DNA from: Streptomyces fulvoviolaceus
Lineage (GTDB): Bacteria > Actinomycetota > Actinomycetes > Streptomycetales > Streptomycetaceae
Assembly (NCBI RefSeq): GCF_000718165.1
Contig: NZ_JOEY01000018.1
Coordinates: forward strand, 62,001 to 126,000
Length of the DNA stretch: 64,000 nt
Direction: 5' to 3'
In this document: positions 48,963-64,000 of the stretch, in pieces
How positions within the stretch are numbered: the first letter of the stretch is position 1
Layout of the letters: the number at the start of each line of letters is the position of its first letter
Notes under the pieces: generated by a model
Told to the model about the DNA's origin: nothing
What the model saw: the letters and a program-made list of their open reading frames with translations, nothing else
Database searches by the model: none
Position numbers and translations under genes: made by a program

Positions 48963-51900
48963 ATGGCACAGCCCGCGCTGGCCGACGTCCTCCCCCTGAC
49001 CCCACTCCAGGAGGGCCTGCTCTTCCACGCCCTGTACGAACACGAGGACGTCTATCTCGTCCAGCTCGTCTTCGAACTCGACGGCACCGTGGACGCCACC
49101 CGGCTCCGCGCCGCCGGACAGGCGCTGCTGGACCGGCACCCCAACCTGCGCGCGGCCTTCCGCCGACGCCGTGGCGGCGCACCGGTGCAGGTCGTCCCGC
49201 ACCGGGCCACGCTGCCCTGGGCCGAGGCCGAGCTGACCGGGCCGGGCATCGACACCGAGGAGGAGTGGGCGCGTCTCCTGGACGAGGACCGGGACCGCGG
49301 CTTCGACCCGGCCACCCCACCGCTCATCCGGTTCACCCTGGCCCGCACGGGTGAGCGGCGGCACCGGCTGCTCGTCACCCACCATCACATCCTGCTCGAC
49401 GGCTGGTCGGTCTCCGTCCTCGTGCGAGAACTCCTCGCGCTGTACGCGACCGGCGGCGACCCGGCCGCGCTCCCGCCCGCCCCGCCCTACCGTGCCTTCC
49501 TGGAGTGGCTGGGCCGACGGGACCGTACCGCCGCCGAAGCCGCCTGGCGGGACGCGCTGGACGGAGTGACCGAGCCGACCCGGCTGGCCGCCGCAGCCAC
49601 CGATGACCGGGGTTCCGGCACGCTCGCACAGGCCCGGGCCGAGCTGTCGGCCGACACCGGTGCGGCCCTCACCGACCTGGCCCGGCGCCTGGGCGTCACG
49701 ACGAACACCCTCGTCCAGACCGCCTGGGCGATCCTGCTCAGTCGTACGACGGGACAGAACGACGTCGTCTTCGGCGCCACCGTCTCCGGCCGGCCCGCCG
49801 AACTGCCCGGCGTCGAGTCGATGGTGGGCCTGTTCATCAACACCGTGCCCACACGCGTCCGGCTGCGCCAGGACGAGTCGCTGGGCGACCTCTTGCGACG
49901 GGTCCAGGAGGGGTACGTCACCCTCCTCGACCACCATCACCTCGGCCTCGCGGACATCCAGCGGGCTGCCTCTGTACCGGAACTCTTCGACACACTCGTC
50001 GTCTTCGAGAACTATCCCCTCGACTCGGCGGACTCGGCGAGTTCGGATGACGACGGCCTGCGCATCGTCGGGACGAGCGGCCGCGACGCCACCCACTATC
50101 CAGTGACACTGGTGGCGTTCCCCGGCCCTCGCCTCCGCTTCCGACTGGCTCACCGGCCCGACCTCTTCGACGCCGACTGGGCCGACGCCACGCTCGCCCG
50201 TCTCGTCAGCATCCTTGCGGACATCGCGGCCGACCCGAGCCAGCCGCTGGGCCGCCTCGGGCTCCTGGCATCGGCCGCACCCGCCGACGAGCGATGTCCG
50301 GCTCCGGCGGCCGGCACCCTCACCGAGCTGTGGGAGGAACAGGTCGCGGCCACTCCCGACGCCGGTGCCGTACTCGACCACGGCCGTGTCCTGACGTACC
50401 GCGAACTGGACGGCCGGGCCGAGCAGTTGGCCCGGCGGCTCACCGCTCTCGGCGCCGGACCCGAGCGGGTCGTCGGCATCGCGCTACCGCGCACGGCGGA
50501 CCTGGTCGCCGCCGTCCTCGGCGTGCTGAAGTCCGGCGCCGCCTATCTGCCCCTCGACCCCGCCTACCCGGCCGACCGCCTCGCGTACATCGTCGACGAC
50601 GCACGCCCGGTCGTCGTACTCGCCACCAGCGGCACGGCCACGGCGCTGCCCGCCGGGACACCCTTGATCACGCTCGACGACCTCGACGATGTGACGGCCA
50701 GCCAAAGAAAGCTGCACACAGCCGACTTGGACAACCTGGCCTGCGTCACCTACACCTCCGGCACCACCGGCCGCCCCAAGGGCGTGACAGCCACCCACCG
50801 CAACGCCGTCGAGTTCGTGACGTGGACGCACACCGCGCTCGGGCCCGAGCGGCTGGCCAAGGTGCTGTTCTCCACCTCGCTCAACTTCGACGTGTCGGTG
50901 TTCGAGATCTTCGCGCCGCTGCTGTGCGGGGGCCGGATCGAGATCGTCGAGAACCTGCTGGCCCTGACCGCCGACGGCCGCGACGACTGGGACGCGACCC
51001 TGGTCAGCGGGGTGCCGTCGGTCATGGCCACGGTCCTCGCCGACCGGGTGAACGTCCCCGCCCGCACCATCGCCCTGGGCGGCGAGCCCATCCCCGAGCA
51101 GCTTCTCGCCGACCTCCAGGCCGCCTTTCCGGGCGCGCGGATCGTCAACTTCTACGGCCCGACCGAGACGACCGTCTACGCCACCGCCTGGCAGTCCGAC
51201 GTCGACCCGCACCCGAAGGACGGCCCGCCGCCCCTCGGCCGCACGCTCGCCCGCAACCGGCTCCACCTCCTCGACCAGGCCCTGCGGTCCGTGCCCGACG
51301 GAGTGACGGGCGAGGTGTACCTGGCGGGCGGCGGACCGGCCCGCGGCTATCTGGGCCGCCCCGGTCTGACCGGGCAGCGGTTTGTCGCCGACCCGTTCGG
51401 CGGGCCGGGGGAGCGGATGTACCGGACGGGCGACCTGGCCGTGCGCGACCCCGACGGACAGCTGCGCTTCCTCGGCCGGGTCGACCACCAGGTGAAGGTC
51501 CGCGGCTTCCGTATCGAACTCGGCGAGATCGAGGCCGTCCTGATGGAACATCAGGACGTCGCCAAGGCGGCCGCCGCCGTACACGGTGAGCAGAAGCTGG
51601 TCGCCTACGCGGTACCGGTCGCGGGCCGGACCGTCACGTCCGACGGCCTCCGCACCCACCTGGCCCGGACCCTGCCCGCCCACATGGTGCCCGCGGCGAT
51701 CGTCGTCCTGGACGCGCTCCCGCTCACCGCCAGCGGCAAGCTGGACCGCAAGGCCCTGCCCGCTCCCGGGACACCGGCGCCCACGCGCAGCGCCCCGCGC
51801 ACGGAGCAGGAGGTGCGGCTGCGCGCGATCGTCGCCGAGGTCCTGGGCCTCGCCCCGCACCTGGTGGGCGTGCACGACAGCTTCTTCGACCTCGGCGGCC

Positions 51901-52844
51901 ACTCGCTGCTGGTGCCGGTGCTGACGTCCCGGTTCCGGACCGAGTTCGGCACCGATATGCCCGTGCGGTCGGTCTTCGCGCAGCCCACCGTGGCCGGGCT
52001 GGCCCCACGGGAGTGCGCCACCTCCGACTCCGGTACGGCGGCCCTGGACCCGGTGCTCCCGCTGCGCACCCGCGGCGACCGTGAGCCCCTGTTCTGCCTG
52101 CCGCCGGCCTCAGGCATGGCCTGGGGCTTCGCCGGACTGACCCGTCACCTCGACGCCGAACGGCCGCTGTACGGACTGCAGTCCCGCGGCCTGGTGCCGG
52201 GGGAGCGACTGTCGGGCAGTCTCGCGGAGACGGTCGCCGAGCACACGGCCCGGATCCGCGAGGTCCAGCCGCAGGGGCCGTACCACCTCCTCGGCTACTC
52301 CATGGGCGGACTGGTCGCCCACGGCGTCGCCACCACGCTCCAGGCTGCGGGGGAGGAGGTCGCCCTGCTCGCCGTACTGGACTCCTTCCCCGGCGCGTGG
52401 ACGAGCCAGGGGCCGAGCCCGACCGACAGAGCGGCCGTGCTGCGCAGTCTGCTGGCGATCCTCGGACGCCCGGCAACGGAGGGGGAGTTGACCGACGCCC
52501 GGTTCACGGAACTGGTGCGCAGCGTGCCCGACCTGCCCGGCAGCCTGGACGACGCCGAACTCGCCGCCCTGGTCGAGGTGACGGCCAACAACCGGCGCCT
52601 GCTCACGGAGTTCGCCCCCGCGCCGTACCGCGGCGACCTGCTGATCTTCACCGCCGCCCATGATCCGGACGCGCACCCGGACCGGCACGGCTCCTGGCAG
52701 CCGTACGTCACCGGCCGCGTCGACCCCCACGACATCCCCTGCACCCACGGGGAGATGACCCGGCCCGGACCGCTGGAGCGGATCGGCCCCGTACTCGACG
52801 AACGACTCCGCGCCAACGCATCACACAGGAGGAACCCCGCATGA
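48963..52844 (+). CDS. NRPS 3: C-A-T-TE (terminal module)
   Basis: 1293 residues. C domain (about 1-440) starts [18 protein letters not shown] with [10 protein letters not shown] near 140, the type expected after an epimerised residue. A domain (about 450-930) reads DVFSAGFVY plus Lys; I cannot assign a substrate. T domain GGHS Ser981. Type I thioesterase (about 1027-1280) with nucleophile Ser1113 in GYSMGG and catalytic-His-like THGEM near the C-terminus, releasing the pentapeptide by hydrolysis or cyclisation (the Thr hydroxyl is one possible nucleophile). The ATG follows a 141-bp gap; the stop overlaps the MbtH-like gene. Confidence 0.92.
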   Translation: MAQPALADVLPLTPLQEGLLFHALYEHEDVYLVQLVFELDGTVDATRLRAAGQALLDRHPNLRAAFRRRRGGAPVQVVPHRATLPWAEAELTGPGIDTEEEWARLLDEDRDRGFDPATPPLIRFTLARTGERRHRLLVTHHHILLDGWSVSVLVRELLALYATGGDPAALPPAPPYRAFLEWLGRRDRTAAEAAWRDALDGVTEPTRLAAAATDDRGSGTLAQARAELSADTGAALTDLARRLGVTTNTLVQTAWAILLSRTTGQNDVVFGATVSGRPAELPGVESMVGLFINTVPTRVRLRQDESLGDLLRRVQEGYVTLLDHHHLGLADIQRAASVPELFDTLVVFENYPLDSADSASSDDDGLRIVGTSGRDATHYPVTLVAFPGPRLRFRLAHRPDLFDADWADATLARLVSILADIAADPSQPLGRLGLLASAAPADERCPAPAAGTLTELWEEQVAATPDAGAVLDHGRVLTYRELDGRAEQLARRLTALGAGPERVVGIALPRTADLVAAVLGVLKSGAAYLPLDPAYPADRLAYIVDDARPVVVLATSGTATALPAGTPLITLDDLDDVTASQRKLHTADLDNLACVTYTSGTTGRPKGVTATHRNAVEFVTWTHTALGPERLAKVLFSTSLNFDVSVFEIFAPLLCGGRIEIVENLLALTADGRDDWDATLVSGVPSVMATVLADRVNVPARTIALGGEPIPEQLLADLQAAFPGARIVNFYGPTETTVYATAWQSDVDPHPKDGPPPLGRTLARNRLHLLDQALRSVPDGVTGEVYLAGGGPARGYLGRPGLTGQRFVADPFGGPGERMYRTGDLAVRDPDGQLRFLGRVDHQVKVRGFRIELGEIEAVLMEHQDVAKAAAAVHGEQKLVAYAVPVAGRTVTSDGLRTHLARTLPAHMVPAAIVVLDALPLTASGKLDRKALPAPGTPAPTRSAPRTEQEVRLRAIVAEVLGLAPHLVGVHDSFFDLGGHSLLVPVLTSRFRTEFGTDMPVRSVFAQPTVAGLAPRECATSDSGTAALDPVLPLRTRGDREPLFCLPPASGMAWGFAGLTRHLDAERPLYGLQSRGLVPGERLSGSLAETVAEHTARIREVQPQGPYHLLGYSMGGLVAHGVATTLQAAGEEVALLAVLDSFPGAWTSQGPSPTDRAAVLRSLLAILGRPATEGELTDARFTELVRSVPDLPGSLDDAELAALVEVTANNRRLLTEFAPAPYRGDLLIFTAAHDPDAHPDRHGSWQPYVTGRVDPHDIPCTHGEMTRPGPLERIGPVLDERLRANASHRRNPA

Positions 52845-53053
52845 CCACCAACCCCTTCGACGACGACACCCTCGAGCACTACGTCCTGGCGAACGAGGAA
52901 GGCCAGCACTCGCTGTGGCCCGCCTTCGCCGAGGTCCCCGCCGGCTGGACGGTCGTCCACGGCCGGGCGAGCCGTCAGTCCTGCGTGGACTACGTCGACG
53001 CGCACTGGACCGACATGCGCCCGAAGAGCCTGATCCGGGCCATGGGCGAGTAG
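52841..53053 (+). CDS. MbtH-like NRPS accessory protein
   Basis: 70 residues. MTTNPFDDDTLEHYVLANEEG, QHSLWPAFAEVPAGW and YVDAHWTDMRPKSL are the conserved MbtH signatures, including the structural Trp residues. MbtH-like proteins bind A domains and improve their folding or activity. It overlaps the NRPS 3 stop (ATGA) and clearly belongs to this cluster. Confidence 0.97.
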   Translation: MTTNPFDDDTLEHYVLANEEGQHSLWPAFAEVPAGWTVVHGRASRQSCVDYVDAHWTDMRPKSLIRAMGE

Positions 53054-53085
53054 CTGACTCCGAGTTGCCTCTGAAAGGGAACGGA

Positions 53086-54312
53086 ATGACCACGCGGCGG
53101 ACGATCGCTCCGGAAGAGCTCGACACGTTGAACCTGGCCGACCCGCGCCTCCACGCGGAGAGCGATCTGTCCGCCGTATGGCGCCACTTGAGGGAGCACG
53201 AGCCGGTCCACTGGAACCCGGCCACCGGCACCGCCCCCGGATTCTGGGTGGTGACCCGGCACGCCGACGTCACCTCCGTGTACCGCGACAACACGGCCTT
53301 CACCTCCGAGGGCGGCAACGTCCTGGAGACCCTGCTCGCCGGCGGCGACTCCGCGGCCGGCCGCATGCTCGCGATCACCGACGGGGCACGGCACCGGGAA
53401 CTGCGCCGCATCCTGCTGCACGCGTTCTCGCCGCGCGCCCTGGAGCCGATCGTCGAGAGCGTGCGGAACACGGTGACCCGGCTGCTGCGGGACGCGATCG
53501 AGAAGGGCAGCTGCGACTTCGCCGCCGACGTGGCCTCGGGCATCCCGCTCGGTGCCATCTGCGACCTGCTCGGCGTGCCCGACGGCGACCGGGCCCATGT
53601 GCTCAGCCTGACCTCGTCGGCGCTGGGTTCGCACGACGCCGACAGTACGGCGGCCGACGCGTGGATCGCCAAGAGCGAGATCCTGCTCTACTTCGCGGGG
53701 CTCGCCCGTGACCGGCGTGAGGGCGGCCACGCGGATGTCATCGCGCTCCTGGCGGGCAGCAAGGTGGACGGGCTGCCGCTGGACGACGACGAGATCATGC
53801 TCAACTGCTACAGCCTCATCCTCGGCGGCGACGAGACCGCCCGGCTGTCCATGATCGGCGCCGCCCTCGCCCTCCTGGACCACCCCGAGCAGTGGGAGGC
53901 GCTCCGGCGCGGCGACGCCGGGATCGACACGGCGGTCGAGGAGATGCTCCGCTGGACGACCCCCGCACTGCACTCGGGCCGCACCGCTACCGCCGATACC
54001 GAGATCGGCGGTCGGCGGATCCGCGCGGGAGACATCGTCACCATCTGGAACGCCTCCGCCAACCGCGACGAACGGGTCTTCGACGCCCCGGAGTCGCTGC
54101 TTCTGGACCGCGTCCCCAACAAGCACATCACCTTCGCCTACGGCCCGCACTTCTGTCTCGGTGCCTACCTGGCCCGGGCGGAGATCGGGGCCGTCCTCGC
54201 CGGACTGCGCGACCTGGTCGCGGAGATGGAACAGACGGGCCCGGCGAAGCCCGTCTACTCCAACTTCCTCAGCGGTCTCAGCTCACTGCCGTTGGCGCTG
54301 AAGGGCGCGTGA
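53086..54312 (+). CDS. Cytochrome P450 of the NRPS cluster
   Basis: 408 residues. Haem-ligand loop FAYGPHFCLGAYLAR with Cys357, I-helix GGDETARLSMIG (about 247), and ExxR as EEMLR. It is a soluble class I-type P450 that needs ferredoxin and reductase from elsewhere. The GGDET I-helix is seen in P450s that hydroxylate carrier-bound amino acids or peptides, so beta-hydroxylation of a residue or late tailoring is likely, but the position is unknown. ATG 53086 has AAAGGGAACGG upstream and lies 32 bp after the mbtH-like gene. Its 3' end overlaps the convergent cupin gene by 35 bp. Confidence 0.92.
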   Translation: MTTRRTIAPEELDTLNLADPRLHAESDLSAVWRHLREHEPVHWNPATGTAPGFWVVTRHADVTSVYRDNTAFTSEGGNVLETLLAGGDSAAGRMLAITDGARHRELRRILLHAFSPRALEPIVESVRNTVTRLLRDAIEKGSCDFAADVASGIPLGAICDLLGVPDGDRAHVLSLTSSALGSHDADSTAADAWIAKSEILLYFAGLARDRREGGHADVIALLAGSKVDGLPLDDDEIMLNCYSLILGGDETARLSMIGAALALLDHPEQWEALRRGDAGIDTAVEEMLRWTTPALHSGRTATADTEIGGRRIRAGDIVTIWNASANRDERVFDAPESLLLDRVPNKHITFAYGPHFCLGAYLARAEIGAVLAGLRDLVAEMEQTGPAKPVYSNFLSGLSSLPLALKGA

Positions 54313-54838
54313 GCGCGTTGAGGGCGTCCAGCAGATGAGGGCTCGCCGGTGAGCCCTCGTCGGCCGGGCCAGGGGTGCGGTGGAGCTCGCCGTCGATGAT
54401 CTCGTAGTGGCCGATGGCCTGCAGGGGCGGCGAGTAGACGTGGATGGTGACGGCGCCGGCGTCGTGGTCCATGCGGTGGATGCCGGAGCCGGGGAAGGAG
54501 AAGGACTCGCCGGGCCCGTACCGGCGGGCGCGGCGCGGGCCGGCCACCGGCAACCCCTCCTGCCAGGCCGTGCCTTCGATGACGTGGACGCCGACACAGG
54601 AACCCTGGTGGTCGTGGTAGCCGGTATCACGGGACTCCCACCAAGTGTTCAGCCACGCCTCGGAGTTCTCGTTCCGCCAGAGCAGCAGATACGAGCCGGG
54701 GCCGGAGCGGTCGAGTGCGGCCGTGTCGACGAAGGCCGCCGCACGGCGGGCCCGCTCCGCACACTCGACCGGCAGGAACGGGCGGTCGGACACGCCGAGT
54801 TCGGCGAGGGCGGTGGCGTTTGTCGGGTTCATGGTCAT
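54278..54838 (-). CDS. Cysteine dioxygenase-family cupin
   Basis: 186 residues, cupin fold. Metal-binding residues appear in RDTGYHDHQGSCVGVHVIEG (first cupin motif, two His) and GSGIHRMDHDAGAVTIHVYSPPL (second motif). Family members oxidise thiols (cysteine, 3-mercaptopropionate, cysteamine) to sulfinates with Fe(II) and O2. It is the last gene of a GntR / dehydrogenase / MIO-less lyase / cupin run, 33 bp after the lyase gene, so its substrate is more likely linked to that pathway. Cysteine sulfinate could also feed sulfonate supply to the NRPS side. It overlaps the convergent P450 gene by 35 bp. Confidence 0.78.
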   Translation of the reverse strand: MTMNPTNATALAELGVSDRPFLPVECAERARRAAAFVDTAALDRSGPGSYLLLWRNENSEAWLNTWWESRDTGYHDHQGSCVGVHVIEGTAWQEGLPVAGPRRARRYGPGESFSFPGSGIHRMDHDAGAVTIHVYSPPLQAIGHYEIIDGELHRTPGPADEGSPASPHLLDALNALTRPSAPTAVS

Positions 54839-54871
54839 CTTTCTCGTCCGATCCGCTGATCCACTGATCCG

Positions 54872-56392
54872 CTAGGGAAGTTCGTCGCCGGCGAGCCAGT
54901 CCTCCAGCGTGTCGAGGTCGCCGTCCGGCGCCTCGCCCGCGCCGACGAAAGGCACCGATCGCCGGGTCGCCGCGTGGGCACGTCGAGTTCCGTCGCCCAA
55001 CTCGCCTACGTGTCCGCGCAGATCGACCGCCTGGGCGCCGCACATCAGCTCGACGGCGGCCAACCGCAGTGCCAGGCCCGCCATTTCATGCAGGCGGCGG
55101 GCCGCGGTGGGCGCCATGGTGATGCGGTCCTCGATACCGGCCGCGATGGCGCTCGTGGGCTGTTCCAGGGTGACGGGCTGCGCGAGGAGGCGTGCCTCGC
55201 CGGCCAGACTCGCCGCGCCGTTGGCGACGATCGCCAGGCCGTCGTCGGGGGTGGTGGGATCGGCGCGGAGCCCGGTCGGCAGGCCGGTGAAGGCCGTGTC
55301 CAGCAGCTTCTGCACCCGCTCGCCCGCGATCGTGACCGCCTGCGCGAGTCCGAGCCGTGCGTAGTCGAGCGCGATCGCGACCGGGGCGATGTCGTGGTTG
55401 CCGGTCGAGATGGCGCGGTCCTCGTCGATGAGCGTGATCGGGCTGTCGCCGGAGGAGGCGAGTTCGACCTGGACCGCGCCGGCGCAGTGCGCGAGCGCCT
55501 GGCGGGCCGCACCGTGGGTCTGCGGCACCACCTTGAAGGCGAGGGGATCCTGGAGGGCGCGGGCCGGTCTGGCGCCGGTCAGGAGGGCCCCGCCCGACAG
55601 CAGTGCGCGCAGGCGGCCGATCGTCTCGTGGGCACCCGAGTGCGGGCGCACTCCGGCGACGGCCGGGTGGATGGCGTCGACGTTTCCCGTCAGGCCCTCC
55701 AGCGAGAGCGCCGCCGCCACGTCGAGGGCCCGGACGGCCCGGGTCGCGCGCTCCAGGGCGAGGCAGGCGATCCCGACCGAGAACGCGTTGCTGTTGACGA
55801 CGGCACCCGCCTCGCGCGGGCCGAGGTCGATCGGTGTGTAGCCGCGTGCGACCAGTGCCGCGCCGTCGTCACCGTGACCGATGAGCGCCAGCCCGATCTC
55901 GGCCAGCTGGCTCAGGTCGGCCTGTCCGATCGAACCGAGCAGGTGGACACGCGGCGTCACGTCGGTGTCGAGGGCCCGGCAGTACGCGTCGGCGACCTCG
56001 GCCCGCACGCCCGCCACGCCCACGGTGAGCCCCGCGGCCCGTACGACCATGGCGGCCCGGACGAACTCCGCGGGCGCGAGCTGCCCATGGCCCACGCGGT
56101 GCGCGCGCAACAGGAGGGGCTGGAAGGCGGCCTGCCGGTCGGCCGATATCGCCGTGGTCTTGATCGCGCCGACACCGGTGTTGAGCCCGTACACGGAGTC
56201 ACCGCGGCTCAGCATCTTCTCAAGTGCGGTGCGCGAGAGGCGCATTCGGTCGCGCGCGGCGGGGCCGAGCACGACACGGCGGCCACGGGCCACCGCCACC
56301 ACGTCGGTCGGCAGCAGGGGACGGTCGCCCAGGACGAGCGCGTCCTCGTCCGGTGCGGCGACGGCCGCCAGAGGCTCGGCGAGAGACGTCAT
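54872..56392 (-). CDS. HAL/PAL-fold lyase lacking the MIO serine (copy 1)
   Basis: 506 residues, the full length of histidine ammonia-lyases. SVYGLNTGVGAIKTT carries the active-site Tyr loop, and QDPLAFKVVPQTHGAARQAL and SSGDSPITL align with HAL regions. At the place where HAL/PAL enzymes have GSVGASGDLAPL, this protein has GSIGQADLSQL (about residue 152): the Ala-Ser-Gly that cyclises to MIO is gone, including the Ser. It therefore cannot deaminate by the MIO mechanism. Ergothionase, a HAL relative, eliminates trimethylamine without MIO, and that is the most reasonable model. It overlaps the upstream dehydrogenase gene by 4 nt. Confidence 0.82.
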   Translation of the reverse strand: MTSLAEPLAAVAAPDEDALVLGDRPLLPTDVVAVARGRRVVLGPAARDRMRLSRTALEKMLSRGDSVYGLNTGVGAIKTTAISADRQAAFQPLLLRAHRVGHGQLAPAEFVRAAMVVRAAGLTVGVAGVRAEVADAYCRALDTDVTPRVHLLGSIGQADLSQLAEIGLALIGHGDDGAALVARGYTPIDLGPREAGAVVNSNAFSVGIACLALERATRAVRALDVAAALSLEGLTGNVDAIHPAVAGVRPHSGAHETIGRLRALLSGGALLTGARPARALQDPLAFKVVPQTHGAARQALAHCAGAVQVELASSGDSPITLIDEDRAISTGNHDIAPVAIALDYARLGLAQAVTIAGERVQKLLDTAFTGLPTGLRADPTTPDDGLAIVANGAASLAGEARLLAQPVTLEQPTSAIAAGIEDRITMAPTAARRLHEMAGLALRLAAVELMCGAQAVDLRGHVGELGDGTRRAHAATRRSVPFVGAGEAPDGDLDTLEDWLAGDELP

Positions 56393-57291
56393 GCCCGCGC
56401 CTCCGCCAGCAGGGCCAGCACCGCGTCCCGCCGCGATGTGAATTCCCGTACGGCGTCGGGCGGATGGTCGCCCAGCAGCCCCCGGCCGCCCTTCATGCCG
56501 GTCGCACCACTGCGCCGCGTTTCCCGCAGCAGCGCCGGTACCTCGGTCGCGCGGGAAAGCAGGGGGAACAGTCGCTCGGCCACGGCTTGATGGACGTCCA
56601 GTCCCGCCGCGTCCATCGAAGCGAACGGGCCGATCGCCGCCCAGCGCGCCCCGAGCCCGGCCACGACGGCCCGGTCGACGTCCGCCACCCCGCAGACACC
56701 CTCCTCGACCAGCGCGTACGCCTCGCGCAGCAATGCGTACTGCAGGCGGTTGGCCACGAAACCCGGGTGGTCGCGGCGGAGCGTGACCGGCTCCTTGCCG
56801 ATCGCCCGCGAGAGGGAGGCGAGCCGTTCCAGGGTGTCCGGCGCCGTGCGCGGTCCGCCCGTCACCTCGACGAGCGGCACGAGTTCGGCGGGGTTGAACC
56901 AGTGCCAGCCCGCGAAGAGTTCGGGACGCTTCAGGCCCTCGGCGAGATCCGCCAGCCGGAGCGAGGAGGTGTTGGTCGCCACGATCCCGTCCTCGGCGAC
57001 CAGTGTCTCGGCCCGGGCCAGCACGGCACCCTTCGCGTCCGCGTCCTCGGCGACCGACTCCACGGCCAGCGCGAACGGACCGGGCGCGTCACCGACGACC
57101 ACGGTCACCGGCCGCACGGATCCGACGAGTTGTCCCACCCGCCTGCCGATCTCGTCCCGGGTCGGCGCGGCCGCTTCCCGCCGCCGTACGAGGACGACCG
57201 TCTCGATGTCCGCGGCGGCGAGACGGGCGGCGATGCCGGTGGCCATCGCGCCGCCGCCGATGACCAGCACACGATCCAAGGTCACGCTCAC
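56389..57291 (-). CDS. 3-hydroxyacyl-CoA dehydrogenase-like NAD-dependent oxidoreductase
   Basis: 300 residues. N-terminal Rossmann motif VLVIGGGAMATGIAARLAAAD, then TNTSSL and FAGWHWFNPAELVPLVEV (catalytic His region; usual form is HFFNP), and GFVANRLQYALLREAYALVEEG at the start of the helical domain. Members include 3-hydroxybutyryl-CoA, L-gulonate and L-carnitine dehydrogenases. The last suggests a hydroxy-betaine or hydroxy-acid substrate here, but this is inferred. It starts at GTG 57291 overlapping the GntR stop, and its stop overlaps the MIO-less lyase start. Confidence 0.8.
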   Translation of the reverse strand: MSVTLDRVLVIGGGAMATGIAARLAAADIETVVLVRRREAAAPTRDEIGRRVGQLVGSVRPVTVVVGDAPGPFALAVESVAEDADAKGAVLARAETLVAEDGIVATNTSSLRLADLAEGLKRPELFAGWHWFNPAELVPLVEVTGGPRTAPDTLERLASLSRAIGKEPVTLRRDHPGFVANRLQYALLREAYALVEEGVCGVADVDRAVVAGLGARWAAIGPFASMDAAGLDVHQAVAERLFPLLSRATEVPALLRETRRSGATGMKGGRGLLGDHPPDAVREFTSRRDAVLALLAEARA

Positions 57292-58016
57292 CCCCAGAAT
57301 CTCTGCTCGTCGAGGTGGGCGAGGAGGATCTCGCCGGCGCCGCGGACGTGGTCGCGCATCACCGTGCGCGCGGTGTCCGGGGTGCGGGCGCGCAGCGCGG
57401 CGGCGATGGCCTGGTGCTCGTGCACGTTCATGGTGGTCAGAGCCGTCTCGTCATGGGCGATGACCCGCCAGACCAGGTCGCGGGGGAAGACGTGCAGGAG
57501 CCCCTGGACGGACTCGGTCAGGCGCCCGTTGCCGGCGGATCGGTGGATCAGGTCGTGGAAGGCGGTGTTCGCGTCGGTCACGGCCGCGTCGAGTTCCGCG
57601 TCGTCGATGCGCCCGGCCGCCGCGACGGCTTCCGTGAGCCGTTCCTGTGTCCGCTCCAGTTCGTCCAGGTCCTCGGCGGAGGCGCGCTCGCACGCCAGCG
57701 CGCACGCGAACCCCTCCATCTCGGCGCGGAGTTCGTAGACCTCGACGAGTTCCGCCCGGGACGGGGTGCGCACCGTGGCGCCCCGGTTGGGAGCCAGTTC
57801 GACCAGGTTGAGGGCCTGCAACTGCCGCAGTGCCTCCCGGATGGGCGTCCGGCTGACGCCGAACCGCGCTGCCAGCTCCTCGTGTTGGAGGCGGGCGCCG
57901 AACGGCAGCTTCCCGTCGAGGATGTCGGCGCGCAGCCGGTAGGCGATCTGGTCGGCGAGGCTCGTGACGGCGAGCGTCTCAGGGGGAGTTGGAGCGGAGG
58001 ACGGTGGCGGGCACAT
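57288..58016 (-). CDS. GntR-family (FadR/FCD) repressor
   Basis: 242 residues. N-terminal winged helix with FGVSRTPIREALRQLQALNL and PNRGATV, and a C-terminal all-helical FCD effector domain with Asp/His metal-ligand-like residues (NTAFHDLIH, HEHQAI). It is divergent from the hydratase-like gene with only 22 bp between the two ATGs, and a perfect palindrome with TTGGATCC half sites lies there. The ATG has no Shine-Dalgarno; TAGTAT ends 6 nt upstream on its strand, pointing to a leaderless mRNA. It probably represses both runs until a pathway intermediate binds. Confidence 0.9.
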   Translation of the reverse strand: MCPPPSSAPTPPETLAVTSLADQIAYRLRADILDGKLPFGARLQHEELAARFGVSRTPIREALRQLQALNLVELAPNRGATVRTPSRAELVEVYELRAEMEGFACALACERASAEDLDELERTQERLTEAVAAAGRIDDAELDAAVTDANTAFHDLIHRSAGNGRLTESVQGLLHVFPRDLVWRVIAHDETALTTMNVHEHQAIAAALRARTPDTARTVMRDHVRGAGEILLAHLDEQRFWG

Positions 58017-58050
58017 GCCCGGATACTAGATTGGATCCATGGATCCAATC
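58017..58050. promoter_or_regulatory. Overlapping divergent leaderless promoters with a 22-bp palindrome
   Basis: A perfect 22-bp palindrome (58029-58050; half GATTGGATCCA) covers the ATG of the hydratase-like gene at its centre. On the plus strand TAGATT (58027-58032) ends 6 nt before that ATG; on the minus strand TAGTAT (58028-58023) ends 6 nt before the GntR ATG. Neither start has a Shine-Dalgarno. The palindrome resembles FCD-GntR operators and would block both promoters. Confidence 0.65.
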
Positions 58051-59700
58051 AATGGCAGGCTTGGTGCACCGGCGCCCACGGGTGCCGAACTCCGCTGTCG
58101 TGGCTGGGAGCAGGAGGGCGTCCTGCGCTGCTTCCTCAACACCCTCGACCCCGCCGTCGCCGAGGACTCCGCCCGCCTCGTCGTCTACGGCGGGCGCGGC
58201 CGGGCGGCCCGCTCCTGGGAGGCGTACGACGCGATCGTCGCCGCCCTCGAACGGCTCGGCCCCGACGAGACGTTGCTGGTCCAGTCGGGCAAACCGGTGG
58301 CCGTGCTGCCGACGCACCCGGACGCGCCGCGCGTGCTGATCTCGACCGCGATGGTCGTGTCGGCCTGGTCGGACGAGGCGGAGTTCCGTCGCCTCGAAGA
58401 CGCCGGACTCACCATGTACGGGCAGATGACAGCCGCCGCCTGGTTCTACATCGGCACCCAGGGCGTTCTCGGCTTCACCCACGAGACCCTCTCCGCCATC
58501 GCCCGCCGCCACTTCGACGGCACCCTCACCGGTCGGCGGGTGGTCACGGCCGGACTCGGCGGAATGGGCGGGGCGCAGGGCCTGGCCATCGCCAACCTCG
58601 GCGGTCGCGGCCTGATCGTCGAGGCCGACCCCGAGCGCGCGCGGCGCAGACTCGACGCGGGCTGGGTCGACCGCATCGCGCCCGACTACACGGCGGCGGT
58701 CGCCGACCTCACCGCCTCGGCCGCCCCCGCCGCCATCGCCCTCGTCGGCAACATCGCCGAGATCCTGCCCCGGCTGGTGGCCGACCGGGTCGCCGTGGAC
58801 ATAGCGACGGACCAGACGGCGGCGCACGACCTCGACCACGGATACGTGCCCATCGGATACAAGCCGGATCAGTCACGCACTCCCGATCCCGCCTACCGTG
58901 CGGCTGTAGAGGCTTCACTGCGCGCACACGCCGAAGCGCTGCTGGCCCTGCGCGAGCGCGGCTCGGTCGTCTTCGAGTACGGCAACAGCCTGCGCGCCCA
59001 GGCGGTGGCGGCCGGAGCCGCCCGAGCCGCCGAACTCCCCGGATTCGTGGCCGAGTACGTACGCCCGATCTTCGCGCGCGGGGTGGGGCCGTACCGCTGG
59101 GTGTGCCTGAGCGGGGACCCCGAAGACCTGCGCCGCAGCGAGGACGCCGTGCTCGAAGTCGTCCAATCGCCGTCCCTGGAGCGGTGGTTCAAGCTCGCCC
59201 GCGCCCGGGTCGCCCCGCAGGGGCTGCCGGCTCGCATCTGCTGGCTCGGCCTCGGGGAGCGGCACGAGGTCGGTCTGCGCCTCAACGACCTTGTCCGGCG
59301 CGGAGAGATCGGCCCGCTGGCGCTCGGCCGGGACCACATGGACCCCGCCGCCGTCGCCTCACCCTCCCGGGAGACCGAGGGGATGCTCGACGGCAGCGAC
59401 GCGATCGCCGACTGGCCCGTCCTGGCCGCGCTGCTCAACGCGGCGCAGGGCGCGACCTGGGTGTCCGTCGGCAACGGCGGCGGTGTCGGTGTGGGCCGCA
59501 GCATCCACACCGGAATCACCGTGGTCGCCGACGGCAGCGAGCTGGCGGAACGCAAGATCCGCCGGGTGTTCTGGACCGACCCCGCGCTGGGCGTGGCCCG
59601 CTACGCGGACGCCGGGTACGACGAGGCCGCCGAGAAGGCCCGGGAGGCGGGACTCGATCTCGGCACTCCGGGCACGTTGGGCATCAGCCCTTCCCCGTGA
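58039..59700 (+). CDS. Urocanate hydratase-like protein (predicted thiourocanate hydratase)
   Basis: 553 residues, full HutU length. Seen: GWEQEGVLRCFLN, VVYGGRGRAARSWEAYDAI, LLVQSGKPVAV, LTMYGQMTAAAW, the NAD-binding TAGLGGMGGAQGLA, GLPARICWLGLGER (conserved catalytic-region Cys), GRDHMD and SDAIADWP. The usual HutU stretch after the DAPRVLI strand is replaced by STAMVVSAWSDEAEF, so substrate contacts may differ. HutU adds water to urocanate using bound NAD. No histidase with MIO and no other hut genes are nearby, but two MIO-less lyases are, so 2-thiourocanate is the favoured substrate. Its 3' end overlaps the convergent amidohydrolase gene by 17 bp. Confidence 0.85.
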   Translation: MDPINGRLGAPAPTGAELRCRGWEQEGVLRCFLNTLDPAVAEDSARLVVYGGRGRAARSWEAYDAIVAALERLGPDETLLVQSGKPVAVLPTHPDAPRVLISTAMVVSAWSDEAEFRRLEDAGLTMYGQMTAAAWFYIGTQGVLGFTHETLSAIARRHFDGTLTGRRVVTAGLGGMGGAQGLAIANLGGRGLIVEADPERARRRLDAGWVDRIAPDYTAAVADLTASAAPAAIALVGNIAEILPRLVADRVAVDIATDQTAAHDLDHGYVPIGYKPDQSRTPDPAYRAAVEASLRAHAEALLALRERGSVVFEYGNSLRAQAVAAGAARAAELPGFVAEYVRPIFARGVGPYRWVCLSGDPEDLRRSEDAVLEVVQSPSLERWFKLARARVAPQGLPARICWLGLGERHEVGLRLNDLVRRGEIGPLALGRDHMDPAAVASPSRETEGMLDGSDAIADWPVLAALLNAAQGATWVSVGNGGGVGVGRSIHTGITVVADGSELAERKIRRVFWTDPALGVARYADAGYDEAAEKAREAGLDLGTPGTLGISPSP

Positions 59701-60586
59701 GCAGTCGCCGCGGATTGGCGATGCGGAAGGCATGCGCCGCGGCTCCGCCCAGACCGAAGCCGGGGTACTGAGGAGGCTCGGCGTAGGGGCGGTCCGAGCC
59801 CTGGACGACGGCGCCCACACCGAGGGCACGGACGACCGCGTCGACAGCGGTCGGACCGTACGAGGACGTCTCGACGAACACGTCCGGGTCCACCCCGGCA
59901 CTGCTCCCGTCGCCCCGCGCGGCGAACCGCTCCCCGTGCAGCGGGGCGAGCCCGGCCAGCAGTGCGAAGCACACCCGCAGCCGTGGGTGGCGCGGCCGGC
60001 CGAAGGCCCGGAAGGCGAACCAGGCGGCGTGCATCTGCTGGACGTAGGGGACCATTGCGGGCCACCAGCCGGGTCCCCCGGAAGCGCCGGGCGCGGGTCC
60101 CGGGTGGACGAACAGCGGGAGGTCGCGCTGTTCGAGGAGGTCGAGCAGCGGGGCGCAGTGCGCGTAACCGGCCGCGTCGGCAAGGGCGTTGGCCGGGAGC
60201 TGGAGACCGACGAAGCCCTGGTCGAGTACGGCGGCCGTCGCCTTGGCGTCGATGTCCCTGACGCAGGCGGCGGCCCAGGCCCCGAACGGCTCGGGGAGCG
60301 AGGCCGAGCCCTCGTGGTAGGCGTCGAGCAGGGGCTGTGCCTCGCTCGCGGGCAGCCACTCGACGCCGATCGGGGCGGACAGCGAGACGAGCGCCCGGCC
60401 GAGGCCGTCGGTGGCGGCGAGGTGCGCACGCCCTGCGATGTCGTGGTCGGCGGGCGGGACGTCGTAGGGCGGCTCGCCGTCCAGATGCAGGGTCCAGCCG
60501 TCCAGGTACGGCGGTTCGCGGCGGGAGCGCAAGGCCGCCACCAGCGAAGGGCTCCACAGATGCTGGTGTACGTCGACATTGGTCAT
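59684..60586 (-). CDS. Amidohydrolase_2-family metal-dependent hydrolase
   Basis: 300 residues. TIM-barrel amidohydrolase of the ACMSD/amidohydrolase_2 type: metal motif VDVHQHLW at the N-terminus, PLFVHPGPAPG in the middle, and QGSDRPYAEPP near the C-terminus (metal Asp). It would hydrolyse a C-N or C-C bond in a small ring or acid. In the proposed pathway it could act on the (thio)hydantoin propionate formed by the hydratase. It overlaps the upstream lyase gene (ATGA) and is last in a three-gene minus-strand run. Confidence 0.8.
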   Translation of the reverse strand: MTNVDVHQHLWSPSLVAALRSRREPPYLDGWTLHLDGEPPYDVPPADHDIAGRAHLAATDGLGRALVSLSAPIGVEWLPASEAQPLLDAYHEGSASLPEPFGAWAAACVRDIDAKATAAVLDQGFVGLQLPANALADAAGYAHCAPLLDLLEQRDLPLFVHPGPAPGASGGPGWWPAMVPYVQQMHAAWFAFRAFGRPRHPRLRVCFALLAGLAPLHGERFAARGDGSSAGVDPDVFVETSSYGPTAVDAVVRALGVGAVVQGSDRPYAEPPQYPGFGLGGAAAHAFRIANPRRLLTGKG

Positions 60587-62109
60587 GACGCTCCTCCCGC
60601 CCGGGCACGCAGTGTGCCCCGGACATCGTCGGACCCCAGGATGTCGTGGCCGACCGCCTCCACGTCCACCCCGCAGGGCCGGTCGTCGTCCAGGCGGGCC
60701 ACGATCTTCCGGATCGCGCGGTGCAGGAACTCCGGTCCCCGCCCCAGGGTGGACGGCGCCGCCAGATCCACCGCCTGCGCGGCCACCACGGCCTCCACGG
60801 CGAGGAGTTGGCGCAGCCGGACGAGCAACGTGGACAGCCGCCGTGCCCCGAGTGCCGCGTTGGTCGAGTCGTCCTCGACGGCGTGTGCGCCGTGGCGGGG
60901 GTCGGTGCTCACCGGGACGGACAGCATGCGGATCTCGGCGACCAGGGCCTGCGCCGTCTTGGTCAGCGGCGCGAAGCCCGAGCGCTCCGGACCGTACGGC
61001 GAGAGGTTCGCGGGCAGTCCGCTGACGGTCGGGTCGAGCAGTCGTCGCATGCGCTCGGCGGAGATCGACGCGGTCTGCGTCAGAGCCAGCGCGAGGGTGT
61101 CGAAGGCGAGAGCGAGGGCCGGGGTGTGGAAGTTGCCGGACGAGAGGATCTCGCCGCTGTCGGGCAGGACGACCGGGTTGTCGCCGCAGCCGTTCAGCTC
61201 CGGAGCCAGCGCGGAGTCGGCGAAGTCCAGGGCCGCGTACGCGGCGCCGTGCACCTGGGCGGCGCAGCGCAGGCTGAGGGGGTCCTGAACCCGCCGTGCG
61301 TTGCGGGGGTCGCCCAGCTCACCCCCTTCCAGCAGGGCGAGCAACTCGCTCGCCGCGCGGGCCTGACCGGGAGCGGGGCGCAGGTCCAGCACCCGGGGGT
61401 CGAGCGGGCTCGTGTTCGCCCGGAAGCCCTCGTAGGTCAGCGCGGTGACCGCCTGGGCCAGCGTCAGGACGGCGGCCGCCTCGTGCAGGGCGAGAGCACC
61501 CTGTCCGGCGGCCAACGGGCTCGCGCTGCACAGCACGTGCCCGTCCTTCGGGCCCAGTTCGGCCGGAATGAGGCCCGCCCGGCGCAGTGCCGTGGCGCCG
61601 TCGAGCACCTCGCCGCCGTACTCGGCGCTTCCCTCCCCGATGACGACGAGGCCGACATGGGCCATCTGGACCAGATCGGCGGCGCCGATCGATCCCACCT
61701 CGGGGATCACGGGATGGACCCCGGCGTCGAGCATGCCGACGAGCAGCTCCAGGATCTCCGGCCGTACCCCGCTGCCCCCGCCCGCGATGCCGTTGGCACG
61801 GGCGAGGAGAGCGGCGCGTACGACGGGGACCGGCAGCGGATCGCCGACCGCGTCGGCCCGTCCCCGGACCGTGCGGACGCTGAACAGCTCGAGTTCGTCG
61901 CGTGGCAGGGCGAACGACGCGCGGGTGCCGAGCCCCGTCGTCAGGCCGTACGTGGGCACCTGGCGGTCGACGATGTCGTCGACGACGGCGCGGTCGCGTG
62001 CCAGTCGGGGGAGTACCTCGTCCGCGAGGACGATGTGTGCGCCATGGTGGGCGACGGCGACGACATCGTCGTAGGACAACGTTCTCCCGTCGACGACGAC
62101 CCCCGTCAT
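60583..62109 (-). CDS. HAL/PAL-fold lyase lacking the MIO serine (copy 2)
   Basis: 508 residues. PTYGLTTGLGTRA contains the active-site Tyr loop, NGIAGGGSGVRPEI and RRVQDPLSLRCAAQVHGA match HAL/PAL. The MIO position reads GSIGAADLVQMAH (about residue 140) instead of GSVGASGDLAPLAH, so the Ser needed for MIO is absent, as in copy 1. The two copies are clearly diverged from each other, suggesting different substrates or a heteromeric enzyme rather than recent duplication. Overlaps the upstream OCD-like gene and downstream amidohydrolase gene by 4 nt each. Betaine lyase (trimethylamine elimination) is the predicted chemistry. Confidence 0.82.
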   Translation of the reverse strand: MTGVVVDGRTLSYDDVVAVAHHGAHIVLADEVLPRLARDRAVVDDIVDRQVPTYGLTTGLGTRASFALPRDELELFSVRTVRGRADAVGDPLPVPVVRAALLARANGIAGGGSGVRPEILELLVGMLDAGVHPVIPEVGSIGAADLVQMAHVGLVVIGEGSAEYGGEVLDGATALRRAGLIPAELGPKDGHVLCSASPLAAGQGALALHEAAAVLTLAQAVTALTYEGFRANTSPLDPRVLDLRPAPGQARAASELLALLEGGELGDPRNARRVQDPLSLRCAAQVHGAAYAALDFADSALAPELNGCGDNPVVLPDSGEILSSGNFHTPALALAFDTLALALTQTASISAERMRRLLDPTVSGLPANLSPYGPERSGFAPLTKTAQALVAEIRMLSVPVSTDPRHGAHAVEDDSTNAALGARRLSTLLVRLRQLLAVEAVVAAQAVDLAAPSTLGRGPEFLHRAIRKIVARLDDDRPCGVDVEAVGHDILGSDDVRGTLRARAGGAS

Positions 62110-63107
62110 GAGAACCGCAGCTTCTGGCCGAGACCGCGCTCTTCGGCCTTCTTCAGCATGGCGGCGCCCAGGGCGATGTCGGAGAGGGAGAGGCCGCGGT
62201 GCCAGAACAGGTTGGTCTCGTCGGCGCTCTCCCGGCCGGGCTTGCGGCCTGCGACGATCTCGCCCAGCTCGCCGTGCAGAGTGGACTTGTCGAGCCTTCC
62301 GGAGTCGACGTGGGCGCGCAGGGCGCCGAACGGCCCCGCGTGGGCCTGGCCCCAGTCGTCGACGACGATCTTGTCCATGATGTCGGTGAGGGAGAGCTCG
62401 ACCGCGCTGTTGGTTCCGTAGGGCACGACCAGGGATCCGGGGGCGATCCACTCGGTCTTCAGGAGCGGCTCCGGGCGTTCGAGGCGGGACGCCTCCACCA
62501 CGATGTCCGCGCCCTGGACGCAGGTCTTCCAGTCGTCGGTCACGATCACGGGCTTGCCGAGGTCCCGTTCCAGCCGTTCGGCGAAGGCCTCGCGGCTCTC
62601 GGGGCGGCGCGAGTGGACGCGGATCTCGCTGAGGTCGAAGATCCGGTCGAGGAGGCGGACGTTCCAGTACGAGGTGGCGCGGGCGCCGATGTGTCCGAGC
62701 ACCTTGGCGTCCGGGCGGGCCAGGTGGCGAGCCCCGAGCGCGGTGAGGGCGCCGGTGCGCATCTCGGTGATGGCGGTGGCGTCGAGCACGGCCACCGGCA
62801 TGCCGGTGCGGGGGTCGAAGAGGTTGAGCAGCGCCATCTCGGAGGGCAGGCCCTGCCGGTAGTTGTCGACGTAGTCGCCCACGATCTTGACACCGGCCAG
62901 GGCGAGCGGGGCGACATAGCCGCGCAGGACGTTGAAGTGTCCGTTGAAGGCGGGGTCGGGCGTGAGGTGGACGCGCGGTTCGACGACCGTCTCGCCGAGG
63001 CCCTGGGCGCGCAGCCCGGCCTCGACGGCGTCGAGTATCTCGGTGTCGGTCAGCTCGAGCTGTTCGATGTCCGAGCCGTTCAGGAAGGTGAACCGGACCG
63101 GTTCCAT
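62106..63107 (-). CDS. Ornithine cyclodeaminase / mu-crystallin family protein
   Basis: 333 residues. MRTGALTALGARHLARPDAKVLGHIGARA is the substrate-Arg/Lys and NAD(P)-binding entrance typical of the OCD/mu-crystallin family (written as the region near residues 120-150); LVVPYGTNSAVELSLTDIMDKIVVDDW follows. Family reactions include ornithine cyclodeamination, ketimine reduction and alanine or N-alkyl amino acid dehydrogenation; I cannot choose. ATG 63107 was taken because GGGAG lies 8 nt upstream and the family starts here; an in-frame upstream start would add ten residues. First gene of the OCD / lyase / amidohydrolase run. Confidence 0.85.
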   Translation of the reverse strand: MEPVRFTFLNGSDIEQLELTDTEILDAVEAGLRAQGLGETVVEPRVHLTPDPAFNGHFNVLRGYVAPLALAGVKIVGDYVDNYRQGLPSEMALLNLFDPRTGMPVAVLDATAITEMRTGALTALGARHLARPDAKVLGHIGARATSYWNVRLLDRIFDLSEIRVHSRRPESREAFAERLERDLGKPVIVTDDWKTCVQGADIVVEASRLERPEPLLKTEWIAPGSLVVPYGTNSAVELSLTDIMDKIVVDDWGQAHAGPFGALRAHVDSGRLDKSTLHGELGEIVAGRKPGRESADETNLFWHRGLSLSDIALGAAMLKKAEERGLGQKLRFS

Positions 63108-63291
63108 GGGGCGTCTCCCTACGTCTGAGCTGGCCAATTGTTAAGGGCACATCAGCCACAGAACATGAAGATTCCGGGCACCCCTGGCCTGATTTCGTAC
63201 GAACGTAACGTGCCGTTTACAGCTGGCCATTGACTGCCATTCAGTCACCGACAACTCTGCATGACCATATGCAGTCGGGTAAGGGGCAGCC
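63108..63291. promoter_or_regulatory. Divergent control region with repeats, OCD and ABC genes
   Basis: 184 bp, AT-richer than average. Contains direct repeats AGCTGGCCAATTG (63128-63140) and AGCTGGCCATTG (63221-63232), the palindrome TTCGTACGAA (63194-63203), and an inverted repeat CTGCAT / ATGCAG (63257-63262 / 63269-63274). TTGACT at 63230-63235 could be a -35 for the ABC gene, though the -10 is weak. The GntR half site TTGGATCC is absent, so control may differ from the 58-kb promoter. Confidence 0.45.
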
Positions 63292-64000
63292 TTGATCAGA
63301 TTCGACGCGGTGAGCAAAAACTATCCAAACGGGACCACAGCCGTGGACGACCTGTCCCTGGAGCTGGCCGAGGGCGGCATCACGGTCCTGGTCGGCCCCT
63401 CCGGCTGCGGCAAGACCACGACCCTGCGCATGATCAACCGCATGGTGGAGCCGACGGCCGGCACGGTGAGCCTGCGCGGGCAGGACATCCGGGAGGTCCA
63501 CGCCCCCGAGCTGCGCCGCGGCATCGGGTACGTGATCCAGCACGCGGGACTGTTCCCGCACCGGACCATCCTCGACAACATCGCGACCGTTCCGCTGCTC
63601 CTCGGCTGGAGCAAGAAGAAGGCGCGGGCGCGGGCGGCCGAGCTGCTGGAACTGGTGGGGCTGCCGGCCGAGATGGCCAAGCGCTACCCGAACCAGCTCT
63701 CCGGCGGGCAGCAGCAACGCGTCGGTGTGGCAAGGGCGTTGGGCGCCGACCCGCCGGTACTGCTGATGGACGAGCCGTTCAGCGCGGTCGACCCGATCGT
63801 CCGGGCCGAGCTGCAGGCGGAGTTCATACGGCTGCAGAAGGAGCTCCACAAGACGATCGTGTTCGTCACCCACGACATCGACGAGGCGATCAAACTCGGC
63901 GACAACATCGCGGTGTTCCGGACCGGCGGCAGGCTCGCCCAGTTCGACACCCCCGAGCGCCTGCTCGCCCATCCCGCCGACGACTTCGTGGCCGGCTTCG
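63292..64000 (+). CDS. Betaine-type ABC transporter ATP-binding protein (OpuCA/ProV-like), 3' truncated
   Basis: At least 236 residues, cut by the window end. Walker A GPSGCGKTT, Q-loop VIQHAGLFPHRTI, signature LSGGQQQRV and Walker B LLMDEPFSAVDP are intact. The Q-loop form and FVTHDIDEAIKLGDNIAVF match glycine-betaine/carnitine/choline importers (OpuCA). It starts at TTG 63292 with AAGGGG upstream. Permease and binding-protein genes would lie beyond the window. Given its neighbours, import of a quaternary-ammonium substrate such as ergothioneine (as by EgtUV, a betaine-type importer) is likely. Confidence 0.88.
   Translation, partial: MIRFDAVSKNYPNGTTAVDDLSLELAEGGITVLVGPSGCGKTTTLRMINRMVEPTAGTVSLRGQDIREVHAPELRRGIGYVIQHAGLFPHRTILDNIATVPLLLGWSKKKARARAAELLELVGLPAEMAKRYPNQLSGGQQQRVGVARALGADPPVLLMDEPFSAVDPIVRAELQAEFIRLQKELHKTIVFVTHDIDEAIKLGDNIAVFRTGGRLAQFDTPERLLAHPADDFVAGF

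Follow-up and report, generated by a model that had tools for sequence, protein, structure and literature searches.

A Streptomyces fulvoviolaceus locus with two MIO-less lyases as a likely site of ergothioneine-family catabolism

Gene content and two-module layout

The DNA considered here is a window of 64,000 nucleotides from Streptomyces fulvoviolaceus (contig NZ_JOEY01000018.1), at the right-hand end of which lies a locus built around two lyases of the histidine ammonia-lyase (HAL) fold, HAL1 and HAL2, and whose gene content makes the catabolism of ergothioneine-family betaines its likely role. A preliminary description of this DNA, made from the sequence alone, had placed next to the lyases a cupin, a hydroxyacyl-CoA-dehydrogenase-like (HCDH) protein, a GntR regulator, a HutU homolog, an amidohydrolase-like protein, an OCD-like protein, and a betaine-type ATPase. 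Domain models recover these genes, with some amendments: the ATPase continues past the window and is followed by importer and RpiR genes, the cupin is of the cysteine-dioxygenase type, and none of the Pfam or NCBIfam models was matched by the amidohydrolase-like protein. Starting on the left, the minus strand carries the cupin thiol dioxygenase, which resembles ergothioneine dioxygenase (54278..54838; PF05995, 33.6 bits), HAL1 (54872..56392; PF00221, 371.6 bits), an HCDH-like NAD dehydrogenase (56389..57291; PF02737/PF00725, best structure 4om8 at 165 bits), and a GntR/FCD regulator (57288..58016; PF00392 and PF07729), after which the plus strand carries HutUx (58039..59700), which its residues and its place in a tree assign to a divergent subfamily of urocanase-superfamily hydratases. 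The minus strand then resumes with an amidohydrolase-fold, decarboxylase-like protein (59684..60586), a candidate ergothioneine-sulfinate desulfinase judging from its fold matches and from the gene partners of its relatives, with HAL2 (60583..62109; PF00221, 453.5 bits), and with an NAD(P) enzyme of the OCD/mu-crystallin family (62106..63137; PF02423, 196 bits). Divergent from the latter, on the plus strand, a betaine-type (OpuC/EgtU-like) ATP-binding cassette (ABC) ATPase gene starts at 63292 and runs through the window edge at 64000 (L005:13292-14404 in our numbering of sequence regions), its truncated in-window part scoring 302.7 bits with TIGR01186 against a cut-off of 326.6; permease, binding-protein, and RpiR regulator genes follow.

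The preliminary description had treated these genes as one catabolic locus, and if its catabolic logic stands, its single-unit view does not: judging from related genomes, the locus is made of two separable modules fused side by side. Module A comprises HAL2, OCD, the amidohydrolase, the betaine importer, and RpiR, and module B comprises HAL1, the cupin, HCDH, GntR, and the divergent HutUx. Among 246 genomes of the genus, HAL2 orthologs are found in 12 (the window's included) and HAL1 orthologs in 2 (the window's and G189). The stretches of ~19.5 kb around the 12 HAL2 genes include OCD and the importer ATPase in 10 cases, the amidohydrolase in 9 cases, and HutUx with HAL1 in 2 cases. HAL2, OCD, and a betaine importer also co-occur on Rhizobium, Martelella, R. 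lentis, and Sinorhizobium plasmids, that is, in four of the five alphaproteobacterial regions examined; in the Azospirillum region, OCD lies ~6 kb from HAL2 and a close importer match was not found. Across these five loci, OCD is 65-72% identical and HAL2 41-46%. Overall, HAL2 matched 105 plasmid records, from which six regions were examined (H41-H44, H46, and H56), and HAL1 matched 238, from which one was examined (H1). As for module B, it is present in full in all six distinct HutUx loci, those of the window and of G189 included; of 15 loci recovered through HAL1, five (two of them from S. cavernae) carry HutUx together with GntR, HCDH, and the cupin. The module B of Nonomuraea basaltis has its own importer and RpiR gene, HAL2 and OCD being absent from the stretch examined. 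With HutUx as the query at E 1e-190, the genome of the window itself was the single match among 394 class genomes, which makes this subfamily either rare or poorly sampled.

Each module also has a candidate operator. A perfect 20-bp palindrome, ATTGGATCCATGGATCCAAT (58030..58049), spans the start codon of HutUx and is probably the operator of the GntR regulator of module B: of six aligned loci, four carry it unchanged, that of S. cavernae (L060) shows one unpaired change, and that of Nonomuraea (L063) shows paired changes; its 18-bp core has no other copy in the 11.6-Mb genome at up to two mismatches. Between the divergent OCD and ATPase genes, a CTGCAT-N6-ATGCAG repeat (63257..63274), found in 11 of 12 aligned loci and absent as such in L053, is the probable operator of module A. 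Since the two candidate operators differ, modules A and B appear to be separate regulons.

With regard to the surroundings, nonribosomal peptide synthetase (NRPS) and cytochrome P450 genes (window 48963-54312) adjoin the locus on its left, the P450 and cupin genes overlapping tail to tail by 35 bases. On the same contig beyond the window, from ~6.5 kb past the RpiR gene (L006:5053-17751), lie the sulfur-related genes MetX, two O-acetylhomoserine sulfhydrylases, and two NtaA/DmoA-type FMN monooxygenases. In other genomes, rhodanese-domain proteins are encoded near HAL1-like genes (L064:11383-13600 and L065:7021-8334, the former also with a homocysteine S-methyltransferase-family protein), and a sulfurtransferase-like protein, at 139 bits under its model cut-off of 250, lies near HAL2 (L046:12997-13848). 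A phage origin of the locus was considered and rejected; a search of PHROGs with the lyases gave no match.

Lyases of the ergothionase clade

HAL1 and HAL2 are full-length, intact HAL-fold proteins. Aligned to the canonical HutH of the host, whose loop reads GSLGCSGDL, they read GSIG-QADL and GSIG-AADL, with one residue of the Ala-Ser-Gly triad deleted and the triad serine gone, which predicts that neither can form the 4-methylideneimidazole-5-one (MIO) group. This alignment and the Pfam matches thus agree with the preliminary description, which had presented both as full-length proteins of the HAL or phenylalanine ammonia-lyase fold unable to form MIO, and their reading as plain histidine ammonia-lyases was rejected on the same ground. 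The deletion is no sequencing accident, since it is common to all listed relatives: it is found in 120 of the 120 matches listed for HAL1 (out of 687, the window protein included) and in 120 of the 120 listed for a rhizobial HAL2 query (out of 1343). In some relatives, a serine occurs within the shortened loop, as QSDL in 23 of the 120 HAL1 matches listed, and as ASDL in 4 of the 120 rhizobial matches listed and 4 of the 6 Streptomyces HAL2 aligned. Alignments took in 9 of the 12 Streptomyces HAL2 loci and 20 of the 120 listed HAL1 matches; a structure model of HAL2 built from nine sequences reached a predicted local distance difference test (pLDDT) score of 38 and was not used.

It is also informative that the ergothionase of Treponema denticola (6s7j) shares this one-residue deletion with HAL1 and HAL2, as well as a Leu at the HAL Tyr280 position, where some HAL2 relatives have Val. 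Residues are numbered here as in HAL. At the His83 position, the two lyases part ways: His is found in 120 of the 120 HAL1 matches listed, when Arg is found in 120 of the 120 rhizobial HAL2 listed, in 6 of 6 Streptomyces HAL2, and in 5 of 5 alphaproteobacterial HAL2 aligned; among nine HAL1-like sequences from metagenome-assembled genomes (MAGs), one (L071) has Cys. The equivalents of Tyr53 and Glu414 are conserved in the lyase alignment. Some relatives of HAL1 are moreover multidomain proteins, the dioxygenase motif DTG[YFW]HDH being present within the same protein in 39 of the 120 matches listed, and HCDH domains being fused to HAL1 in 3 of them.

To place these lyases, a first phylogeny (IQ-TREE, 44 rows) united HAL1, HAL2, and the T. 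denticola ergothionase in one clade with a support of 100, ergothionase and HAL2 grouping at 97. A second tree of 39 rows, inferred under a site-mixture model with the MIO-loop columns removed and two more MIO enzymes added (HAL2_L045, HAL2_L054, HAL1like_L071, HAL1like_L068, P0090, P0035, and HutH_L098 being left out), recovered the same clade at 97/94 and ergothionase with HAL2 at 88/88, with the MIO lyases lying across a 98/90 branch. The preliminary description had considered the two proteins akin to ergothionase and had proposed such a tree as a check; in both trees they fall in one clade with the T. denticola enzyme, and they do not group with MIO lyases. The exact place of ergothionase within this clade seems less certain because it forms a long branch. 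In sequence searches, the best solved structure for HAL1 is also ergothionase 6s7j, at 189.6 bits versus 186.6 for the HAL 7tqr.

The host genome encodes a third MIO-less lyase, HAL3 (loop GSVGTGDI), on another contig (L007:5491-11295, contig C16), where it is accompanied by a separate betaine-type ABC transporter and by a regulator resembling the RpiR of the window, and lies ~5.5 kb from the canonical hutU. Elsewhere, a very divergent MIO-less HAL homolog stands beside an OCD gene (L104:11473-12942); the other members of this cluster include HAL3, an 8qfl-type dioxygenase (see below), an amidohydrolase-fold gene, HutU, and HutH. Matches of HAL1 (~35% identity in those shown) also occur on 126 Klebsiella plasmid records, and the K. 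pneumoniae plasmid NZ_CP092405.1 (L055, 3497-13379) carries a hut operon in which a MIO-less lyase (GGSVG---YL) follows a betaine-type ABC transporter; this operon looks like a hercynine-using hut cluster.

Sulfur removal, hydration, and import

The best solved structures for the cupin are 8qfl-8qfr (listed as "Cysteine dioxygenase"; 61.6 bits), canonical cysteine dioxygenases being matched at E 0.1 or weaker, and the three-His iron site of the cysteine-dioxygenase type is present as an HxH motif (HDH) and a second His (in IHVY). We take 8qfl-8qfr to be the ergothioneine dioxygenase of Thermocatellispora tengchongensis. Reportedly (Nalivaiko, Vasseur, and Seebeck, 2024), an ergothioneine dioxygenase and a metal-dependent desulfinase convert ergothioneine into hercynine and SO2. 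In this regard, the relatives of the amidohydrolase are of interest: 8qfl-type genes (64-90% identity over a 121-residue fragment) lie within 1.5 kb of them in 15 of 20 loci, a pairing found in 14 of the 14 loci outside the genus and absent from the window and from four other loci of the genus. At one locus (L098), the neighbors of the pair encode a betaine importer, a MIO-less lyase of a third type, and proteins with the domains of EgtD, EgtB, and EgtA. The window genome has no 8qfl-type gene, its best match, at 58.6 bits, being the window cupin itself; a search of 296 class genomes with this cupin at E 1e-30, a threshold too strict for its sister clade, retrieved the window only. As for the predicted structure of the amidohydrolase (pLDDT 83), its closest folds are those of isoorotate decarboxylase (IDCase) and ACMSD, and such a decarboxylase-like fold fits the loss of SO2. 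The cupin and the amidohydrolase are better read as performing the dioxygenation, then the desulfination, of the C2 sulfur than as including the metal-hydrolase step of the preliminary description, since the amidohydrolase most resembles ring decarboxylases and its relatives partner a thiol dioxygenase.

HutUx matches the urocanase model TIGR01228 at 684.0 bits (cut-off 375), a pass that is weak evidence because the thiourocanate hydratase 7ned, used as a control, passes the same model at 702.6 bits. The latter scores 1007 bits with the thiourocanate-hydratase model NF058530, for which HutUx, at 539.3, stays below the cut-off of 930, as it does for the S-methyl thiourocanate hydratase model NF058531 (576.7 versus 880). 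Moreover, the YGG and Cys410 positions, lost in 7ned, are conserved in HutUx. A canonical HutU (893 bits) is encoded separately in the genome.

The binding protein encoded past the window edge matches OpuBC- and EgtUC-type structures (83.8 bits for EgtUC). In the HCDH-like protein, the His and Glu that we assume to be the catalytic residues of HCDH are both kept. The host also encodes EgtD of ergothioneine synthesis.

A possible pathway, its alternatives, and its known relatives

Gene content, the loss of MIO, membership of the ergothionase clade, gene partnerships, and two separate probable operators can be read directly from the sequences. From there, we suggest, with a probability of roughly 60%, that the locus serves to take up and break down ergothioneine, or oxidized forms of it, through two parallel modules. 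The OpuC/EgtU-like importer would take up the betaine, the cupin would oxidize its C2 sulfur to a sulfinate, and the decarboxylase-like amidohydrolase-fold enzyme would expel SO2 from C2. The MIO-free lyases would abstract the C-beta proton and release trimethylamine. The substrate of HAL1 would be ergothioneine, its sulfinate, or hercynine, and that of HAL2, with its Arg at the His83 position, a C2-sulfinate or C2-sulfonate form; OCD would then probably act on the HAL2 product, perhaps through a hydride-driven loss of sulfite. HutUx would hydrate the resulting urocanate skeleton and thereby feed the Hut pathway toward glutamate. More tentatively, module B could represent a route not described so far: one betaine would lose both its sulfur and its trimethylamine to a thiol dioxygenase and a MIO-free lyase, which are covalently fused in relatives, and a further urocanase subfamily and HCDH would finish a modified urocanate. 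In that case, the substrate might not be ergothioneine as such but a derivative of it, hydroxylated or altered in another way, since S. cavernae and N. basaltis hold an 8qfl-type dioxygenase, a desulfinase-like gene, and module B on one contig.

Several observations weigh against this proposal. The window cupin falls outside the 8qfl clade, in a sister clade (support 85), and shares 36-39% identity with the members of the former. Moreover, a cupin of the window type and a true 8qfl-type gene are both present in S. cavernae, N. basaltis, and S. scabichelini; because of this placement and this coexistence, the substrate of the window cupin may differ, and may be another thione, such as the product of HAL1. 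The hydrolases LigY and PtmU3 are also found among the fold matches of the amidohydrolase, at ranks 43-47. Both lyases match histidine ammonia-lyase models, though below cut-offs, and the best solved sequence match of HAL2 is the MIO enzyme 7tqr (251.7 bits), ergothionase coming third (250.0). In 6 of 6 HutUx, the HHGGGVGMG of urocanases reads GNGGGVGVG, the His-His pair having become Gly-Asn, and HutUx branches apart from urocanases (50% identity) and from 7ned (43%) alike. The best matches of the binding protein are choline/nicotine-sensor proteins (103.4 bits), above EgtUC. As for gene partnerships, the amidohydrolase is missing from 3 of the 12 HAL2 loci, OCD and the importer are missing from 2 of the 12, and 10 of the 15 loci recovered through HAL1, all of them MAGs at 41-47% identity, are without HutUx.

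How, then, do other readings of the locus compare with the import and dismantling of ergothioneine or its oxidized forms? The preliminary description had envisioned one in which HAL1 or HAL2 is a plain ergothionase yielding thiourocanate, to be hydrated by HutUx and opened by a metal hydrolase. The presence of ergothionase-clade lyases beside a HutU homolog and an amidohydrolase-fold protein agrees with this, and so does the inability of the urocanase model to separate the two activities; however, the low score of HutUx with the thiourocanate-hydratase model, its retention of YGG and Cys410, and the decarboxylase-like character of the amidohydrolase-fold protein point elsewhere, and the dioxygenase fused to HAL1 relatives is left without an account, so that we regard this route as unlikely. 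What survives of it are the MIO-less lyases of the ergothionase clade, the OpuC/EgtU-type importer, and a catabolic rather than biosynthetic logic; the succession of thiourocanate hydratase and metal hydrolase does not. A little less likely still is a catabolism of hercynine (histidine betaine) only, in which the lyases would yield urocanate and trimethylamine without sulfur chemistry. The best of the three HutU models for HutUx is indeed that of urocanase, a MIO-less lyase and a betaine importer do sit inside a full hut operon on the Klebsiella plasmid, and another such lyase lies near hutU on contig C16 of the host, but this reading gives no role to the thiol-dioxygenase/HAL1 fusions or to the desulfinase-like partner, and HAL3 with its importer already provides the genome with a separate pair near hut.

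Another aromatic betaine, such as that of tryptophan, tyrosine, or phenylalanine, would suit the importer and the MIO-less lyases just as well, as it would the Arg that replaces His83 in HAL2, but we consider it improbable: HutUx, the thiol dioxygenase, and the desulfinase-like gene together indicate a sulfur-bearing imidazole, and relatives adjoin egt genes in L098. Finally, since the P450 gene, itself directly preceded by an NRPS gene, shares its last bases with the cupin gene, the locus could be conceived as a tailoring cassette of these biosynthetic genes, with the lyases acting as mutases. Among the 11 other HAL2 loci, which retain importer and regulator, a P450 relative (29%) showed up in a single one (no search for NRPS genes was made in these loci), and this most improbable of the readings was rejected.

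From the perspective of what has been published, a 2026 article (PMC13405746) describes ergothionase as confined to a few bacterial genera, on the basis of BLAST from one Burkholderia sequence, with the proviso that divergent homologs would be missed. Another (PMC11993508) relates that deletion of a putative ergothionase gene lessened ergothioneine loss in Mycolicibacterium neoaurum, and cites beta-hydroxyergothioneine from a mushroom, which is one candidate for the hydroxylated substrate of module B. In Vibrio natriegens, ergothioneine loss is ascribed to an ordinary HutH (PMC13276445), so MIO-less enzymes may not be the sole route. Literature searches around ergothioneine breakdown returned no title or abstract opening describing the present gene set. 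The locus and its relatives supply candidate divergent ergothionase homologs, here in an actinobacterium that also encodes EgtD, as well as candidate enzymes, a dioxygenase-lyase fusion among them, for the removal of sulfur and the release of trimethylamine. The replacement of His83 by Arg may turn a lyase that acts on thiones into one that acts on sulfonates or sulfinates, and these gene sets suggest an oxygen-using recycling of the antioxidant ergothioneine.

Among known systems, a bacterial ergothioneine sulfonate pathway is the subject, by its title, of a 2022 ACS Catalysis article (Yan et al.), cited in PMC13405746 for Agrobacterium radiobacter. Both title and citation fit the rhizobial loci that group HAL2, OCD, and an importer, and the title suggests that ergothioneine sulfonate may be the substrate of these loci, its sulfonate group being bound by Arg83; the role of OCD is our own proposal. 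Thiourocanate hydratase (NF058530; 7ned) belongs like HutUx to the urocanase superfamily, in which HutUx forms a separate branch, 43% identical to 7ned and with a urocanase-like Cys410. The EgtUV importer shares an OpuC-type ATPase and binding protein with the present system, in which, however, the binding protein is a separate gene that scores higher with choline/nicotine-sensor proteins than with EgtUC. Oxidative ergothioneine degradation, as outlined above, likewise joins a cupin of the cysteine-dioxygenase type to a metal-dependent desulfinating enzyme, and the 8qfl family pairs with the amidohydrolase family; here, by contrast, the cupin belongs to a sister subfamily and is joined to two MIO-less lyases, a HutU homolog, HCDH, and OCD. 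Closest of all to the lyases, the T. denticola ergothionase (6s7j/6s7q) has in common with HAL1 and HAL2 a HAL fold without MIO, the loop deletion, the Tyr280-to-Leu change, and a clade, from which HAL1 stands out as a sister clade with dioxygenase or dehydrogenase domains fused in some relatives, and HAL2 by its Arg in place of His83 and its OCD partner.

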